Shown here in pieces: positions 1,976 to 8,651 of a stretch of 9,636 nucleotides of DNA. The stretch is from assembly GCA_019308645.1 (NCBI GenBank), contig JAFDHR010000118.1, forward strand, positions 1-9,636. Direction: 5' to 3'. Made by a program: the position numbers and the translations under genes. The notes beneath the pieces are model-generated. The model worked only from the letters and a program-made list of their open reading frames with translations. It was not told the origin of the DNA and ran no database searches. The DNA comes from Deltaproteobacteria bacterium. Lineage in GTDB: Bacteria > Desulfobacterota > DSM-4660 > Desulfatiglandales > B25-G16. Positions within the stretch are counted from its first letter, which is position 1, and each line of letters begins with the position of its first letter.

Positions 1976-2632
1976 ATGAACCTTGAATTTATTAAGGCAA
2001 GAGATTTACCAGATGCCTGGTTTCAGTGTGTTTATCAGATACTTGACACTGGAAGGACATACACAATAGATAGGGGAAGCTATGAAGGGCAGAAAAGGAT
2101 TGAGTTTGACTATATAACAGTACACATAAAATACCCAGGTAAAAGACCGCTATTGCCCGACATCCCTCCCGCTTTAGGAATACCTAATCCGGTAGATAAT
2201 GATTACCTCGATCAATACCTTCCATACGTTATGACCTCTACAAAAAAGGAAGGGGAAGAGTACACATACGGGGAGTATCTTGAGCCGCAAATAAAAGAAG
2301 TGATAAGGATGTATAGGGAAGATGGCCATGGTACAAACCAGGCCTATATGACAGTAGGCGATCCTAAAACATTATATCTTAGCGATCCTCCCTGTCTCAG
2401 AGGAATTGATACCAGAATCAAGGACAACAAGCTCCACTTTGTTGTCTATTTCCGCTCATGGGATCTGTGGAATGGATTTCCAGCTAATTTAGGTGCCATT
2501 CAATTATTGAAAGAGTATATGGCTGAGAGTATAGGTGTTGAAGACGGGCAAATCATAGCTGCAAGCAAAGGCCTTCATCTTTACGATTATATCTGGGAAT
2601 TAGCAAAATTACGGACACGGACTATGAAATGA
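1976..2632 (+). CDS. thyA: Archaeal-type thymidylate synthase
   Basis: The product likely methylates dUMP to dTMP with a folate methylene donor, supplying thymidylate for DNA synthesis. At 218 residues it is shorter than standard ThyA (~264) and resembles the compact family known from methanogens. The active-site set is complete: YTYGEYL (96-102), catalytic C140 in DPPCLRG, the FRSWDLWNGFPANLG block (159-173) with R160, D163 and N171, and H201/Y203 in GLHLYDY, which match the phosphate- and uracil-contacting residues of E. coli thymidylate synthase. The ATG is preceded by GAGGGGG at 1963-1969, six bases away. A -10-like TAAAAT lies at 1933-1938 without a good -35, so it may instead be read from the ilvE promoter. 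A related activity such as pyrimidine-nucleotide hydroxymethylation cannot be excluded from sequence, but the retained D163/N171 pair and general housekeeping context favour dTMP synthesis. Confidence 0.88.
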   Translation: MNLEFIKARDLPDAWFQCVYQILDTGRTYTIDRGSYEGQKRIEFDYITVHIKYPGKRPLLPDIPPALGIPNPVDNDYLDQYLPYVMTSTKKEGEEYTYGEYLEPQIKEVIRMYREDGHGTNQAYMTVGDPKTLYLSDPPCLRGIDTRIKDNKLHFVVYFRSWDLWNGFPANLGAIQLLKEYMAESIGVEDGQIIAASKGLHLYDYIWELAKLRTRTMK

Positions 2633-3070: not shown

Positions 3071-3151
3071 TCCACTAATGTGATGATTTTGCAAAATCTT
3101 GCATATTAGAAGGACTAAGCCCTCAAGAAATATTATTTTAAAGATTAATTG

Positions 3152-4180
3152 ATGATGGTAAAGGTAGATCTCAAAGACCTGGATCTGGAAGAGACAAAGG
3201 CATATCTAAAAAAAATCGGACTCGAAGCCTATAGAGCCAAACAGATCAGGCAATGGATATTTGGCCACAAATCTAAATCATTCGAGGGAATGACCAATAT
3301 TTCTAAGGATTTAAGGAGCTATCTTAGCTCCTCTTGCATTATAAGCCAGCTAAAAATTACTAAAACCGAAATCTCTCTTGATGGTACAAAAAAGGTCTTA
3401 TTTGAACTTGAGGATGGTAACAGGATAGAATCTGTTCTTATCCCTGAAAAAAACCATTTTACCGCATGCATATCATCCCAGGTTGGTTGTGCCATGGGAT
3501 GTAAGTTTTGCCTTACCGCCAAGCAGGGATTTATACGGAGCTTGAAGACTTCTGAGATAATAAACCAGGCCATCCAGATCAGGGAATTACTCGATCAACC
3601 AGAAAAACTTACAAACATTGTTTTTATGGGTATGGGTGAGCCATTGGCAAATTTCGAGGCGGTAAAAAAGGCAGTCAAAAATATAATCTCTTCAGATGCC
3701 CTTAATTTTTCCCGCCGTCGGGTAACTCTTTCGACATGCGGCCTTGTACCGGAAATAGAAAGGCTTGGTAAAGATTTCCCAATCAATTTGGCTGTTTCCC
3801 TGAATGCTGGCGATGATAAAACCAGGAACATCCTTATGCCAATCAATAAAAAATACCCTTTAAAAAAATTAATAGAAACACTTAAGCATTTCCCTTTACA
3901 CAAGGGCAGGAGAATTACCTTTGAATACATCCTTATAAAGGATATTAATGATAGGCTTAGTGATGCTACTAACTTGGCGAGACTCCTTAAAAATATCAGG
4001 GCAAAGATAAACCTGATTCCATTCAATCGCTATAACGGGAGCCCCTTTGAGGAACCTGATGAAAAGAGAATTCTCGCATTTCAGGATGAGCTGATAAGAA
4101 AAAACTATACTGTTATGATCAGAAAAAGCAAGGGGGCTGATATCTCTGCTGCCTGCGGGCAATTGATAACAGCTACGTAA
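3152..4180 (+). CDS. rlmN: Dual-specificity RNA methyltransferase RlmN (23S rRNA A2503 / tRNA A37)
   Basis: RlmN is a radical SAM enzyme that methylates carbon 2 of A2503 in 23S rRNA and A37 in some tRNAs. The 342 residues carry every expected element: the CxxxCxxC cluster motif CAMGCKFC (C113, C117, C120) inside SSQVGCAMGCKFCLTAKQGF; C106 just before it, matching E. coli C118; the SAM-binding GMGEPL (160-165); TLSTCGLVP (192-200); VSLNA (215-219); and C335 in DISAACGQL, the methyl-carrying cysteine. The chloramphenicol-resistance relative Cfr modifies carbon 8; the GMGEPL and AACGQL forms fit RlmN better. TTG (3149), ATG (3152) and ATG (3155) are all in frame just after a TAA at 3146-3148, so the start lies within these three codons. 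None has a good Shine-Dalgarno sequence; AGAAGGA at 3108-3114 is too far. The gene converges on the DUF4384 gene with 23 bases between stops and no visible terminator. Confidence 0.95.
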   Translation: MMVKVDLKDLDLEETKAYLKKIGLEAYRAKQIRQWIFGHKSKSFEGMTNISKDLRSYLSSSCIISQLKITKTEISLDGTKKVLFELEDGNRIESVLIPEKNHFTACISSQVGCAMGCKFCLTAKQGFIRSLKTSEIINQAIQIRELLDQPEKLTNIVFMGMGEPLANFEAVKKAVKNIISSDALNFSRRRVTLSTCGLVPEIERLGKDFPINLAVSLNAGDDKTRNILMPINKKYPLKKLIETLKHFPLHKGRRITFEYILIKDINDRLSDATNLARLLKNIRAKINLIPFNRYNGSPFEEPDEKRILAFQDELIRKNYTVMIRKSKGADISAACGQLITAT

Positions 4181-4203
4181 GATTCTTCGATAAACACCGA
4201 TTC

Positions 4204-5091
4204 TTAGTCTTCCACAGTATTCACCCCTATTTTAACCTCACCAACCTCTACCAATCCCCCTGGACGATTTCCTTTTTTTTCTGTAATTTTCACTCCCCTG
4301 GTCTTCGCCCCAGCTTCCATCGTACCGGTCTGCACCATGTAGATACCTTGAGATGGAATGAGGTCCAGCTCCCCGAGCAGGGTAGTAAAAGCATAAAGGG
4401 TAATACCCTTCAACCCCAGAGGCGGACTTACTTCCATTTCAAATCTACCTCTCCCTGAAGGTATTTCATAGATGACACCGCCATTGAAATAATTGTCAAT
4501 TCTGTACGGATTAGGAATGAGTTGGATGAGATAATCTGCAGCATCCTGGTAAATAATTCTGGCAAAAAGGGGTTTGTTGCCTTTAAGATAAATCTTTATT
4601 TTCTCACCAATTTGGTATCTTTTCTTATCAGTCCAAAGCTTCACTGTGAGAGGTGCATTAGGGTCATCAAGGAGGGCCTTTCCCTTGATAACCTTCCTTA
4701 GAGAATCTGGGTCAGGGGCAACCTCAGCCTTGATTTTTACCTTATAGCATTCACCAGCATACTCAGTTTTGAACCATCCTTTCTCCATTTCTTCAATAAC
4801 TCTCACCTTTGCCTGAGCATAGGCATTTATAATGTCTGAGCTCACAATGGCATTTTTTACCTCTGTCTCACTTTTTATATACGTGAGGGCCATTTCAGCA
4901 GCTTTTCTTTTTGTCTCAGCCATGGCAAGTTCCCTGGTTTCCTTCCTGGATTTATCCTCTCCCATACAGGCATGACCCTCTGCTTCCAGTATTACCGAGC
5001 TTTGTACATCAAAGCCTTCCATCTGTGCCAAGGCCTGAGAGCTGCCCAAAAAAAGCCCAGCACTTGCTACAAAAATCCACCAGCTCTTCAT
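4204..5091 (-). CDS. Secreted DUF4384 protein, likely partner of the upstream caspase
   Basis: The 295-residue product has a Sec signal peptide (MKSWW, hydrophobic stretch to about residue 20, cleavage probable after ALA at 22), placing it in the periplasm or outer membrane space. Residues ~30-125 form a domain resembling LPP20/FlgT N-terminal-like exported folds (VILEAEGHACMGEDKSR, a basic helix, then CYKVKIKAEV), with two cysteines, C42 and C115, that could form a disulfide. Residues ~147-235 match the DUF4384 pattern: PLTVKLWTDKKRYQIGEKI, then YLIQLIPNP, YFNGGVIYEIP and a closing strand. In many proteobacteria DUF4384 is fused to or encoded beside caspase-like proteins, and here the caspase gene lies 148 bases upstream on the same strand. 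The start is ATG at 5091 with AGGGGG six bases upstream. The domain assignment comes from remembered motif patterns; the biochemical role is unknown. Confidence 0.8.
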   Translation of the reverse strand: MKSWWIFVASAGLFLGSSQALAQMEGFDVQSSVILEAEGHACMGEDKSRKETRELAMAETKRKAAEMALTYIKSETEVKNAIVSSDIINAYAQAKVRVIEEMEKGWFKTEYAGECYKVKIKAEVAPDPDSLRKVIKGKALLDDPNAPLTVKLWTDKKRYQIGEKIKIYLKGNKPLFARIIYQDAADYLIQLIPNPYRIDNYFNGGVIYEIPSGRGRFEMEVSPPLGLKGITLYAFTTLLGELDLIPSQGIYMVQTGTMEAGAKTRGVKITEKKGNRPGGLVEVGEVKIGVNTVED

Positions 5092-5159
5092 CCTTTACCC
5101 CCTATTTAGTCTAAAGCTCCCTTGCTTTACATGGGCCTTATCATTTTCCTTCTCTTTTC

Positions 5160-5180
5160 AAAAAAACTTCCTTTTGGAAA
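5160..5180 (-). terminator. Weak terminator-like hairpin between the caspase and DUF4384 genes
   Basis: On the minus strand, TTCC-aaaa-GGAA is followed by G and seven T (plus-strand 5160-5179). The stem is only four base pairs, so it could at most reduce read-through from the caspase gene into the DUF4384 gene. The rest of the 148-base gap is A+T rich with no clear promoter. Confidence 0.25.
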
Positions 5181-5239
5181 AATATAGAAAATATATTTAG
5201 CCCCTCTTAAATTATTCCTTACATACCTGTTTAAATCTC

Positions 5240-7204
5240 TCAATTAATGATGCCTAAAATCAAACGTCCTTTAACAATACCTTTTTTAACAGGGTGTTGT
5301 TCTTGACCTGTCGCTTGAGGTACCTGCTTGGATACATAGCTATACGCCTCATCTACAGTGACTACTCCGTCTTTGTCAGTATCTGCCTTTCTTCGAAGCC
5401 CTTTAAGCAAAAAATAGGTAAAAACCCCGTGGTGAAGTTTCTCATCCTCACTGCTGACCTCATTGGCTCCACTGGCTGTCAATATAATCCTCCCTTTCCC
5501 ACCTGCAATTCGATCTAAAAAGGCATCAGAGATATTTGCCCGCATTCCTGTTAAACTAATGGTTCGCCCCCCACTTGCACCACTGTAGCAGGAGTCAGCA
5601 ATGAAGATTAAGCGTTCTGATCGTATCCGGTGAAAAATGTGAGAGATCTCTCTCATTGGTAGTGCAGATGCATAGAGGTCCTTTGGGTCAGCATCATAGG
5701 GAAGAAGGTATTTCTCTAATCCATCGCCATCTGGACTCATCACATCTTTTTCAGTTGCTCCGTGTCCGGCAAAATAGATAATAACCATATCATCCTTGCC
5801 CGCCTTACTCTTTAAATGGGTCCCAAGGATACTTCTTACTTTCGTAAGGTTAGCCTCCTGGTTTAAAAGGAGGGTAACATTTTCAGCAGGTATCTGGTTG
5901 GAGTGTACTAAATGATCATAAAATGCCCTTGCATCATTCACAGCATATTTTAACTGGCGAACATGTGGATAGTTATCTATTCCAATGACTGCAGCCCATA
6001 TGTTTTTACGTATCTCAACTTTATGAACTGTGAGTATCTTCTCAGATAAAAGGCCATCAGAGTCAATAGCACGTAGCTTAATTCTATTTTCCCCTATTTC
6101 AAGTGGAATTCGCTCGGCAAAGTCAAGACGCCTTGGATATCTCTTTCCTTTTACCTTAATGCCACGGCCCATTTTCTTTTCTATAGGCCTGTTATTTATG
6201 TAGATTTCCAGCCTCTCTAAGCCCTGGTCATCTTCCGCTACTCCGGAAAGTTGGATTATATTACTTTCCACCTTACTACCGTCTTTTGGTGAAGCAATTA
6301 CAATAATAGGAGGAGTTTTGGAGCCAGCCTCCAGTTTAGTTAACAGATCCTTCTCCTTCATTTCTTTTTCTGCAAGTTCTTTACTGAGAAGCTCTGCCTT
6401 TTTTCTCTCCTCCTCAAATTTCTTTTTCATCTCCTCCAGTTGGGCAAGTGTTGCTGTGAGTTTTGACAGTCTTGTCTCGAGCTGGGCGACTTTATCTTGC
6501 TTTTTAGCCTCAACTGGTGATGGTTTGGCCCGTTGCACTTCTTGCTCTGGTTTTTCTTTCAATTTCCGCAATTCTTTTTTTGTTTCCTCTATCTCTTTTA
6601 AGGCCTTTGCTTTGGCAAGATATGCCTCTTTTCGTCCATTAGCCTGATAGAGTGCATCAATAATAGCCTTGTTATCAGGTTCTCTTTCTTTCATCTTCTC
6701 AAAAAAATCCGCAATCTGCGCCCAATCCTTTTTTTCCCAGACAATAATATCCACACTGAAAAAACCTACATTCCGATGATACCACTCTGGATTGAGCGGT
6801 TCTCCATATTTGTCAACATCTCCCCTTCTTATTCCTAAATATAGATTTCCTGAATAAGACGCATATGTTATGATGCCATTAACACCCCTGAGTGGACTAA
6901 ACCTCAGATTCTCGCCGACCCTTACCATAAGTGGCCAACCATGTTCTGGCCTAACATTAGGATAATTAGTACTCATACTAATACTCCCTGTAGCAAGAAT
7001 AGAATAAAGGTTACCTTTCGATACATAGATCCCTGTATTCACCATGCCAGGATGACTTCCTGAAAGCGTGGTATGTTTATATTCCTTGATAATGGGTGGT
7101 AAATATTTTGGCATCTTGAGAATGGGTTTAGAACATCCAGTGATCAACAAGAAAAAAGAGATGAGAAGATAAAACAATGAAGAAAGAAATCTATGCCGTT
7201 TCAT
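5240..7204 (-). CDS. Exported caspase-family lipoprotein with LecA-like, coiled-coil and Ig-like domains
   Basis: The 654-residue protein is a multidomain lipoprotein. Residues 1-24 form a lipoprotein signal ending in LITGC, with lipidated C24; S25 at the next position suggests outer-membrane sorting. Residues ~45-156 resemble the galactose-binding LecA (PA-IL) fold: GMVNTGIYVSKG, YSILATGSI, SGNLYLGIRRG and RNVGFFSVDIIVW. Residues ~160-292 are charged coiled coil rich in K and E. Residues ~298-395 form an Ig-like domain (PPIIVIASPKDGS, GENRIKLRAIDSDG). Residues ~402-654 form a peptidase C14 caspase domain with H481 in YFAGHGA and C539 in IADSCYSGASGG, the catalytic pair. A perfect 12-residue EF-hand loop, D608-E619, sits near the C-terminus. 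The ATG at 7204 follows GGGAGG by eight bases. It likely heads an operon with the DUF4384 gene. Caspase-like enzymes usually cut after Arg or Lys in bacteria; the substrate here is unknown. Confidence 0.9.
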   Translation of the reverse strand: MKRHRFLSSLFYLLISFFLLITGCSKPILKMPKYLPPIIKEYKHTTLSGSHPGMVNTGIYVSKGNLYSILATGSISMSTNYPNVRPEHGWPLMVRVGENLRFSPLRGVNGIITYASYSGNLYLGIRRGDVDKYGEPLNPEWYHRNVGFFSVDIIVWEKKDWAQIADFFEKMKEREPDNKAIIDALYQANGRKEAYLAKAKALKEIEETKKELRKLKEKPEQEVQRAKPSPVEAKKQDKVAQLETRLSKLTATLAQLEEMKKKFEEERKKAELLSKELAEKEMKEKDLLTKLEAGSKTPPIIVIASPKDGSKVESNIIQLSGVAEDDQGLERLEIYINNRPIEKKMGRGIKVKGKRYPRRLDFAERIPLEIGENRIKLRAIDSDGLLSEKILTVHKVEIRKNIWAAVIGIDNYPHVRQLKYAVNDARAFYDHLVHSNQIPAENVTLLLNQEANLTKVRSILGTHLKSKAGKDDMVIIYFAGHGATEKDVMSPDGDGLEKYLLPYDADPKDLYASALPMREISHIFHRIRSERLIFIADSCYSGASGGRTISLTGMRANISDAFLDRIAGGKGRIILTASGANEVSSEDEKLHHGVFTYFLLKGLRRKADTDKDGVVTVDEAYSYVSKQVPQATGQEQHPVKKGIVKGRLILGIIN

Positions 7205-7235
7205 CTGAGGTACCTCCCTAATTTTTTCACCTTTG

Positions 7236-7263
7236 ATGATAGCAGACCAACATAGTTTTGCAA
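7236..7263 (-). promoter_or_regulatory. Sigma70-type promoter of the caspase-DUF4384 unit
   Basis: On the minus strand, TTGCAA (7263-7258) and TATCAT (7241-7236) are separated by 16 bases and match the -35 and -10 consensus at four and five of six positions. Transcription would begin near 7229, giving a leader of about 25 bases that contains the GGGAGG ribosome binding site. That site overlaps a perfect ten-base palindrome, GAGGTACCTC (7207-7216), which could modulate access to it. Confidence 0.55.
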
Positions 7264-7284
7264 GGAAAATCAGGTTGGTTTTTT
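7246..7284 (+). terminator. Inverted repeat with T-run overlapping the caspase promoter
   Basis: ACCAAC (7246-7251) pairs with GTTGGT (7274-7279), with an inner TTTT/AAAA pairing, and five further T follow on the plus strand. This has the shape of a rho-independent terminator reading rightward, yet no plus-strand gene precedes it. It overlaps the caspase promoter spacer, so it might instead be a regulator's operator or stop antisense transcripts. Positions 7285-7610 beyond it hold no gene. Confidence 0.3.
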
Positions 7285-7610
7285 GTCCACAAGTATTTCG
7301 TATGTGCTAATGAACTTGTCAAATCCTTTAGCCTGATATGCCCTAAAAATTCATTAATGGTTTGGATTTTTAAGCACTTATTGAAGTAAACAGATATTTT
7401 CACAATATCATTTATTATGGAATCTTTGAATAATAATTTTCAAAATGAAATCCATCATTAGTAATCTTATTCTATTTCTATGACAAGAATTGTATGAGCG
7501 CTGGCTCTGGGATTTCCACACTATAGAGAATGGCTCTGGAGCAGTACGAAGTATAAAGTGATGGGAAATTAACCTTTCAACAAGTAATGCAATCTGAGAT
7601 TAAACCAATA
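7285..7610. other. Non-coding A+T-rich gap with minor repeats
   Basis: No ORF or RNA gene was found. Two small structures are visible. An A+T-rich imperfect hairpin at 7417-7455 pairs ATGGA with TCCAT and TTTGAA with TTCAAA. A nine-base direct repeat, TGGCTCTGG, occurs at 7502-7510 and 7531-7539, 29 bases apart. Neither has a recognised function. Confidence 0.4.
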
Positions 7611-7643
7611 AAAAAGGGGGTTACCGATAAAGCCGATAGCCCC
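7611..7643 (-). terminator. Rho-independent terminator of tRNA-Val
   Basis: On the minus strand, GGGG-c-TATCGG pairs with TCGGTA-a-CCCC through ten base pairs with two G-T wobbles and one mismatch, around the five-base loop CTTTA, and is followed by C and six T. It begins 11 bases after the tRNA CCA end, exactly where the tRNA transcript should stop. Confidence 0.85.
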
Positions 7644-7654
7644 TTGATTTTATA

Positions 7655-7729
7655 TGGTGGGCGGTGCGGGGTTTGAACCCGCGACTTCCACCGTGTGAAG
7701 ATGGCACTCTCCCGCTGAGTTAACCGCCC
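7655..7729 (-). tRNA. tRNA-Val with anticodon CAC
   Basis: The 75-base minus-strand gene folds fully. The acceptor arms are GGGCGGT (7729-7723) and ACCGCCC (7665-7659), followed by discriminator A and an encoded CCA (7657-7655). The D stem is ACTC/GAGT with G18-G19 in the loop AGCGGGA. The anticodon stem CCATC/GGTGG holds the loop TTCACAC, so the anticodon is CAC, reading the valine codon GUG. The variable loop is AAGTC, and the T stem is GCGGG/CCCGC. The T loop reads TTTGAAC, with T where nearly all tRNAs have C56; the G19 partner could still form a wobble. Because the CAC anticodon reads only GUG, another tRNA-Val elsewhere must read the other valine codons. Promoter and terminator flank it, so it is a single-gene transcript. 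Confidence 0.95.
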
Positions 7730-7755
7730 GAATATATACCTACACATAGATTGAT

Positions 7756-7784
7756 ACTATAGTAAAAAAATATTTGCAAATAAA
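7756..7784 (-). promoter_or_regulatory. Promoter of tRNA-Val
   Basis: On the minus strand, the -10 TATAGT (7761-7756) matches five of six consensus bases. A weak -35, TTTATT (7784-7779), lies 17 bases upstream in a very A+T-rich stretch. The start would fall about 20 bases before the mature tRNA 5' end, a usual precursor length. Confidence 0.45.
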
Positions 7785-7807
7785 ATTAATCAAGCCCGTT
7801 ATTAGCC

Positions 7808-7898
7808 AGCCACAAATTATCACGAACAATTATTTAACAATCCCGCCTGCCGGATGGCGGGCAGGTTCATTTGTGTACATTGGTGTCCATTCGTGGCT
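7808..7898. repeat. Palindromic dispersed repeat with GC-rich centre
   Basis: The centre pairs CC-c-GCCTGCC (7842-7851) with GGCGGGC-a-GG (7856-7865) around GGAT. The outer arms are imperfect: AGCCACAAATTATCAC from 7808 faces GTGTCCATTCGTGGCT ending at 7898. It lies just downstream of the pseudouridine synthase gene, whose stop is at 7905. It has no T-run, so termination by it is doubtful. CATTCGTGGCTGA-like sequences are familiar as intergenic repeats in environmental genomes. Confidence 0.5.
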
Positions 7899-7904
7899 GA
7901 ATAG

Positions 7905-8651
7905 TTAATCGAGCCCAACTGATTTACGTAAGGCCTTTACTTCCACATTTTTAAGGTGCCGGTATCTTCCAACCTTTAGGTCGCCTAAATCGAGATTACC
8001 ATACCCTATCCGGGTAAGCTTTAGGGTTTTATGCCCCACAGCTTCAAGCATCCTTCTTATTTCTCTGGATCTACCCTCAAAGATGGTAATCCTTGCTACA
8101 CTTCTGTCCTGTTGTTTCTCTATTATCCTCACACGAGCTGAATTAGTTGGCCCATCATCAAGAACAACACCCTTTTTTAATCTCTCAACTGACTTATCTG
8201 ATATAGAACCCTCAATAATTACCTTATACGTCCTTGGGATATGGAATTTTGGGTGCATGAGCCTAAAGGCAAGATCACCATCATTTGTAAGAATTAAGAG
8301 CCCGGAGGAATCAAAATCGAGGCGTCCAATAGGATAAACCCTCTCCTTAACATCTTTAACCAGATCCCGGATGATAGGCCTTCCTTCCGGGTCATGCAGG
8401 GTACTCACATAGCCAAACGGTTTATTTAAAAGGAAATAGATTTTTTTCGGAGGATCAGGAATAGGGTGACCATCAACGCTTATTGAATCTACTCCCCATA
8501 CTGCCTTTGAGCCAACTCTTTTCTCCACCTGCCCATTCACTGCTACAAGACCTAAAGATATAAGTTCATCGGCCCGTCTTCTGGAGGCAATACCAGATAT
8601 AGCAATAATCTTGTTTAAACGCTCCTTTTTTGTATCATTCTTCTTCTCCAT
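7905..8651 (-). CDS. rluB: Ribosomal pseudouridine synthase, RluB/RsuA family
   Basis: These enzymes isomerise a specific uridine to pseudouridine in rRNA; RluB acts on 23S U2605 and RsuA on 16S U516 in E. coli. Counting from ATG at 8651, residues ~10-55 form an S4 RNA-binding domain (RLNKIIAISGIASRRRADELI, VAVNG). The catalytic domain follows with YFLLNKPFGYVST, the active-site aspartate D112 in GRLDFDSSGLLILTNDG, RTYKV, and GRSREIRRMLEAVGH. The 248 residues are typical of the family. Placement after scpB is the conserved arrangement in which the gene is usually called rluB, so 23S is the likelier target. GTG at 8654 directly precedes the ATG and either may start the protein. The gene overlaps the end of scpB by 17-20 bases, and its ribosome binding sequence AAAGGAG lies within scpB, so the two are translationally coupled. 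Confidence 0.92.
   Translation of the reverse strand: MEKKNDTKKERLNKIIAISGIASRRRADELISLGLVAVNGQVEKRVGSKAVWGVDSISVDGHPIPDPPKKIYFLLNKPFGYVSTLHDPEGRPIIRDLVKDVKERVYPIGRLDFDSSGLLILTNDGDLAFRLMHPKFHIPRTYKVIIEGSISDKSVERLKKGVVLDDGPTNSARVRIIEKQQDRSVARITIFEGRSREIRRMLEAVGHKTLKLTRIGYGNLDLGDLKVGRYRHLKNVEVKALRKSVGLD

Follow-up and report, generated by a model that had tools for sequence, protein, structure and literature searches.

The caspase lipoprotein and the DUF4384 protein

The stretch of DNA analysed here (9,636 nucleotides, contig JAFDHR010000118.1 of the Deltaproteobacteria assembly GCA_019308645.1; hereafter the window) carries on its minus strand two neighbouring genes whose products both bear an export signal. 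By the list of open reading frames (ORFs), a gene for a caspase lipoprotein of 654 aa (5240-7204) is followed, after a gap of 148 bp (5092-5239), by a gene for a DUF4384 protein of 295 aa (4204-5091). A purine run resembling a Shine-Dalgarno sequence is read before the start of each. The original prediction, made from the sequence, described the pair as an intact caspase lipoprotein with a secreted partner on the same strand and took the two for one envelope-located system. Its description of both proteins is borne out; as to the system, caspase and DUF4384 genes belong together as classes, and the two orthologues of the window are a loose case of this association.

All features of the pair lie on the minus strand. 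The lipoprotein signal of the caspase occupies residues 1-24 (7133-7204), with the lipobox LITGC and Ser at +2; Cys24 is invariant in 26 of 26 sequences, and is kept in at least 90% of 78 aligned sequences. Lipoproteins without Asp at +2 are sorted to the outer membrane, and LITGCS, with its Cys and no Asp at +2, agrees with the sequence criteria for this location, so that judging by the lipobox the caspase is apparently anchored in the outer membrane. Residues 30-158 (6731-7117) are modelled, at a pLDDT of about 90, as a beta sandwich like that of the lectins LecA, PllA and EclA: Foldseek returns 6ygq (E 6.7e-7), 5odu (7.5e-6) and 2vxj (3.2e-5), with a TM score by target of 0.71 and an rmsd of 2.2 for 6ygq_D. 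Profile A6 reaches lectin chains at E values from 4.9e-4 (6ygq) to 0.43, a range that also contains unrelated designed proteins (the best at 0.0033), and no lectin family is found among the Pfam matches of the protein up to E 1. In VIA-align, caspase-fold chains take up the list of matches to the model, so that the lectin-like domain is barely probed there. As modelled, the N-terminal domain has a LecA-like sandwich fold.

A helical or coiled-coil stalk is predicted at residues 161-293 (6326-6724; helices 161-174, 179-216 and 230-293), then a bacterial Ig-like domain at residues 299-395 (6020-6310; Big_7, 25.9 bits for a cut-off of 24.1) and the caspase domain at residues 400-637 (5294-6007). 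The latter matches Peptidase_C14 (PF00656) over residues 403-639 with 62.1 bits, the curated cut-off being 21.4. The catalytic His481 (codon 5762-5764) and Cys539 (codon 5588-5590), as well as Asp537, two residues before the Cys, do not vary among the 78 aligned sequences, which include that of the window; Asp537 may be the acidic residue of an S1 pocket for Arg or Lys. Near the end of the domain, an EF-hand-like loop, DTDKDGVVTVDE (residues 608-619; 5348-5383), has D608, D610 and D612 invariant in the same 78 sequences, and the more distant loci, wherever they contain this region, all read D-x-[DN]-x-[DN]; the Pfam EF-hand model gives it E 0.08, under the cut-off. Among the 120 relatives listed, out of 1556, 119 cover 88-100% of the protein at 59-84% identity and one is a partial match at 96%. 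Sequence and model together describe an intact C14 protease borne by a predicted lipoprotein, with a lectin-like head, a helical stalk, an Ig-like domain and a conserved EF-hand-like loop.

At its N-terminus the DUF4384 protein has a signal peptide, as read from the sequence (residues 1-22, 5026-5091, ending in ALA with Q next). It continues with a modelled alpha/beta domain (residues 33-125, 4717-4995) that Foldseek relates weakly to Lpp20 and Tip-alpha (2wcr, E 0.010; 5ok8, E 0.026). No LPP20 or FlgT-like domain is matched by Pfam in this protein; one relative gives FlgT_N at E 0.0069, under the cut-off. The DUF4384 domain itself (PF14326; residues 159-234, 4390-4617) scores 64.7 bits for a curated cut-off of 27 and is modelled as a macroglobulin-like beta sandwich; a PDB sequence search with the protein returned nothing up to E 1. 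Beyond it the model falls below pLDDT 50 (residues 241-280) before a final predicted strand (283-293). Within this linker, otherwise variable in the subfamily, lies Arg265 (codon 4297-4299), a candidate cleavage site, which is Arg in 73 of 73 rows of alignment A4 and in 34 of 34 sequences of another alignment, a set that excludes L104, L105 and the broken gene of L148.

Caspase, DUF4384 and CHASE2 genes in related loci

On the caspase side, a contig scan with two peptide patterns yielded 32 loci in 31 genomes, many flanks ending at contig ends. A DUF4384 gene is present at 12 of these loci (L001, L002, L010, L012, L013, L015, L024, L026, L027, L029, L030, L032), on the strand of the caspase in all except L026. 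It lies directly downstream of the caspase, as in the window, in L002, L015, L024 and L032; in L010, L012, L013, L027, L029 and L030 it is upstream, with a gene for a CHASE2 receptor in between. Random placement would bring a DUF4384 gene near the caspase in 0.32 of the 31 genomes, and 12 were observed (P 3e-17).

The other side starts from the DUF4384 subfamily of the window, defined by matches at E 1e-30 or better to its DUF4384 protein, which is found in 26 of 395 genomes of one phylum and in four of the 31 caspase genomes (G008 being in both), i.e. 29 loci. Nine of them have an ORF with a caspase domain within about 8 kb, always on the same strand, though L089 has only a 107-aa piece; in G161 caspase genes lie about 9 kb away, beyond the limit, and were not counted. 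By Pfam alone, a caspase is near DUF4384 in 8 of the 29 genomes against 0.52 expected at random (P 1e-8). Both P values are to be read as orders of magnitude only: the background assumes random and independent placement, whereas caspase genes cluster and the genomes share ancestry and are in many cases incomplete; moreover a true caspase, that of G008, escapes PF00656 and scores 782 bits with the caspase profile A3. Seven further loci of the subfamily, from one order, include a caspase gene in four cases; one of these genes is divergent, and the other three lie on the same strand.

The caspases that neighbour this subfamily differ in architecture from that of the window, where checked. Eight of them, from seven of the 29 loci, were given to Pfam, and seven carry WD40 repeats, one ankyrin repeats; at the four further loci the caspases have FGE-sulfatase, PEGA or Lcl_C domains.

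CHASE2 genes are recurrent in these surroundings. They occur at nine of the 32 caspase loci (L002, L010, L012, L013, L015, L027, L029, L030, L032), and a CHASE2 match lies near and on the same strand in four of the 29 subfamily loci (L085, L086, L088 and L092, Pfam-checked in L092 only). Nine CHASE2 proteins were assigned an output by Pfam (seven from the 32 loci, plus those of L092 and L154): guanylate cyclase in four (L002, L032, L092, L154), SpoIIE in three (L010, L012, L013) and a sigma54 activator in two (L027, L029). The DUF4384 proteins of the CHASE2 clusters are short. Genome-wide, DUF4384 was found in 27 of the 31 caspase genomes, in single copy in 16. It adjoins a CHASE2 match in 14 of the 31 (G002, G004, G005, G007, G009, G010, G012-G015, G026, G028, G029, G031), and in six of these (G009, G010, G012, G026, G028, G029) the DUF4384 and CHASE2 matches are each the only one of the genome.

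Some loci were left out of these counts: L114, paired with L009 (DUF4384 and CHASE2 on another contig of the same genome, with an exact 99-bp end overlap); L119, likewise another contig of the genome of L016, where DUF4384 and CHASE2 accompany the divergent front part of a caspase-family gene; L112, a second caspase locus of G005 with DUF4384 and CHASE2; L153; and the truncated gene of L154.

A few caspase loci show particular structures. In L004, from a more distant, endosymbiont relative, the gene at 9995-12031 has an Arg aligned with the catalytic Cys while His and Asp are kept, possibly a pseudo-orthocaspase according to this one alignment. In L013 (7990-10856) an interruption breaks the caspase gene, and behind it stands another, partial copy of the front part of the gene. 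L154 (7859-9253) encodes a relative with the lectin-like head, the stalk and part of the Ig-like domain and without caspase domain, its frame running into unrelated sequence; a DUF4384 gene and a CHASE2-cyclase gene lie divergently beside it. Lastly, all of the eight Nitrospirota loci (L017-L023, L025) encode, behind the caspase, a protein of 332-344 aa with a shared C-terminal motif, and in seven of them a second gene of the same strand comes next; in L017, the only locus checked by Pfam, the first is a YNCE-like propeller and the second has a FecR domain.

Transcription signals and neighbouring genes

The claim of a good promoter ahead of the pair did not hold. Six promoter-like sites were counted on both strands of 4000-7700, where shuffled sequences give 8.3 +/- 3.0, and none stands above chance; the best one (10 of 12 matches, 7443-7414) precedes the start of the caspase gene by about 210 bp. 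Within the 148-bp gap, the same scan returned no terminator-like site and a promoter-like site with 9 of 12 matches (5210-5181), likewise at chance level.

The pair is bordered by housekeeping-type genes, a convergent rlmN (3149-4180) on one side and, on the other, tRNA-Val (7655-7729), then rluB-like, scpB and scpA genes; eight proteins of the window were submitted to Pfam and comprise the pair and housekeeping-type products. Among these genes sits one for a thymidylate-synthase-like protein (1976-2632, plus strand), whose closest model is the methanogen-type TIGR03283, at 93.4 bits for a cut-off of 174.55.

Is the pair of the window a unit?

We read the pair as a local, loosely held member of wider envelope clusters in which a caspase and a DUF4384 protein, both exported, go together, often with a CHASE2 receptor; we give this a probability of about 0.42. 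Of the readings considered, we favour the one in which exported caspases and DUF4384 proteins form an exchangeable envelope kit, often supplied with such a receptor, the caspase being its protease, specific for Arg or Lys and possibly controlled by Ca2+. What the window displays is an intact caspase with a lipoprotein signal adjoining a DUF4384 protein with an export signal, and all that goes beyond this we infer.

Several observations weigh against this reading. At the level of classes, 20 of the 32 caspase loci are without DUF4384 gene (several being cut by contig ends), and in L001 the DUF4384 gene is 6.7 kb from the caspase, closer to another caspase-like ORF. Symmetrically, 20 of the 29 subfamily loci have no caspase nearby, and in seven of the 29 genomes PF00656 finds no match at all, which for G008 is an error. 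In the window, no match to CHASE2 was obtained. At the level of exact orthologues, the 85 genomes of one order contain seven with the caspase family (E 1e-100) and seven with the DUF4384 subfamily (E 1e-30); a single genome has both, on separate contigs, where independence predicts 0.6. All five genomes with both families (G004, G006, G008, G027, G472) have them on separate contigs. Rare adjacency of homologues, which the original prediction had named as telling against a joint system, is thus true of the exact orthologues and false of the gene classes; a joint system is supported for the classes and not for this very pair.

Two relatives lacking the caspase count in the same direction, and bear on the view that the two genes are chance neighbours, the DUF4384 gene belonging to the rluB / tRNA-Val / rlmN locus, where it would serve a separate role, and the caspase gene having been gained or lost independently of it. 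L148 is syntenic with the window (protein identity of 93% for scpB, 86% for rluB and 91% for a partial rlmN), and its order is scpA, scpB, rluB, tRNA-Val, DUF4384, rlmN, without caspase; nevertheless its DUF4384 gene (7474-8359) is broken by an in-frame stop and a frame break just where the caspase is missing, though a sequencing or assembly error could explain this. L146, a contig of 4084 bp whose DUF4384 protein is 86.8% identical to that of the window, matches the window by blastn at 4203-5177 and 7239-7458 with 41 bp between the blocks. It therefore keeps the region upstream of the caspase joined to DUF4384, while the stretch with the caspase coding sequence (5178-7238) is absent. However, the outer flanks of L146 do not match the window, so that L146 may represent another place in the chromosome; moreover a different caspase, with an Lcl_C domain, starts divergently upstream of its DUF4384 gene, and PF00656 has no other match in the genome at E 1e-5. 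The two edges of the caspase segment have in common a repeat of 9 bp at most, a length that 33% of 300 shuffles attain, and thus show no sign of a target-site duplication. The absence of the caspase in L146 and L148 may reflect a gain in the lineage of the window or a loss in the relatives, both being compatible with the data. Chance neighbourhood is, for this pair, a serious possibility that we nonetheless consider doubtful, given that the linkage between the two classes is far above random.

Alternatively, the DUF4384 protein might serve as substrate: a cut by the caspase after Arg265 would free or swap the last beta strand and so alter the binding of a partner. This agrees with the strict conservation of this Arg in a linker of low confidence ahead of the final strand, and with the preference for Arg or Lys at P1 described in PMC5756287 for C14 enzymes other than animal caspases. 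Yet Arg265 is kept also in genomes without PF00656 match at E 1e-5 (e.g. G103, G180, G262, G182) and need not be a caspase site; because of this conservation without detected caspases, we hold the cut as a minor and improbable alternative. That a signal makes the caspase kill the cell, as in a defence or programmed-death device, is very improbable. The appeal of this reading lies in two models: the caspase model of PADLOC, matched at E 2e-15 (two proteins were scanned, and PADLOC models carry no cut-off), and the EACC1-associated caspase of NCBIfam (NF047832), whose 96.9 bits remain short of the cut-off of 140, so that the caspase does not qualify as a member. Against it, the lipoprotein signal puts the caspase outside the cytoplasm and the other Pfam-scanned proteins of the window are of housekeeping type.

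A possible mechanism

Returning to the pair as a member of the envelope clusters, the caspase would sit in the outer membrane, where its lectin-like head may dock it on a glycan or another envelope polymer. Binding of Ca2+ at the EF-hand-like loop might then switch on cleavage after Arg or Lys, with the DUF4384 protein acting as adaptor or substrate. Where a CHASE2 gene is present, the receptor could read the state of the DUF4384 protein and relay it to the cytoplasmic side, to a cyclase, a SpoIIE phosphatase or a sigma54 output. The window has no receptor gene near the pair, which would here act without receptor or with one encoded elsewhere. Two points go against this scheme. The lectin role and the control by Ca2+ are deduced from fold and sequence, and orthocaspases without p10 were proposed to be Ca2+-independent (PMC5756287, a review).

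Extended to several phyla, the scheme would be one of extracytoplasmic proteolytic signalling: a glycan-docked and Ca2+-gated caspase with a DUF4384 adaptor would act through CHASE2 on cyclic nucleotide, phosphatase or sigma54 outputs, the parts being exchangeable and the window representing a version with two genes, into which another DUF4384 subfamily has been swapped. In this full form we regard it as rather unlikely. Bacterial caspase homologues have mostly been discussed for cell death, and to our knowledge few of their substrates have been identified. A lectin-headed lipoprotein caspase family tied by gene neighbourhood to DUF4384 and CHASE2 would bring a partner to each side, for the caspase a possible substrate or adaptor and for the CHASE2 receptor a possible input.

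Comparison with known systems

The claim that function and targets of the system are undescribed holds for the open-licence literature as far as searched: in open-licence PMC articles (subscription papers, supplements and preprints being outside the scope) we found no account of a caspase/DUF4384/CHASE2 cluster, nor of a lectin-headed lipoprotein caspase. The components, on the other hand, have known counterparts. With bacterial orthocaspases and metacaspases (C14) the caspase of the window shares the His/Cys dyad, the Asp two residues before the Cys and the caspase fold, and it differs from orthocaspases as a lipoprotein with a LecA-like head and a helical stalk. PMC6426788 reports Big_7 and EF-hand motifs as accessory elements of archaeal orthocaspases; the literature passages at hand name no lectin-like accessory domain of orthocaspases, the word lectin occurring 0 times in PMC8283722. 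The galactophilic lectins LecA, PllA and EclA resemble the N-terminal domain by fold, with only 16-22% identity in the Foldseek rows, whereas the domain of the window is part of a protease. Similarly, the MG domains of C3, C5 and alpha2-macroglobulin have the beta-sandwich fold of the DUF4384 domain in common, at 10-19% identity, from which we draw nothing as to function.

The association with DUF4384 and CHASE2 also has precedents. Both are known accessory domains of cyanobacterial orthocaspases (PMC7475262, PMC8283722 and PMC3501461), and DUF4384 is listed for 23 of these proteins (PMC8283722; also PMC7475262); the term DUF4384 is absent from the operon survey PMC3501461. In the cyanobacterial DUF4384 orthocaspases both domains belong to one protein, whereas in the window they are encoded by two neighbouring genes, each product with its export signal. 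As for CHASE2, PMC5192318 describes the BiofilmReg operon of Burkholderia, where the gene of a LysM-FecR protein lies beside that of a CHASE2 histidine kinase, and reports the factors recognised by CHASE2 receptors as unknown. In the same text the words caspase and DUF4384 occur 0 times, and the window, unlike these operons, is without CHASE2 gene; operons of the BiofilmReg type nevertheless resemble the caspase/DUF4384/CHASE2 clusters of the relatives in that the gene of an exported partner adjoins that of the CHASE2 receptor.

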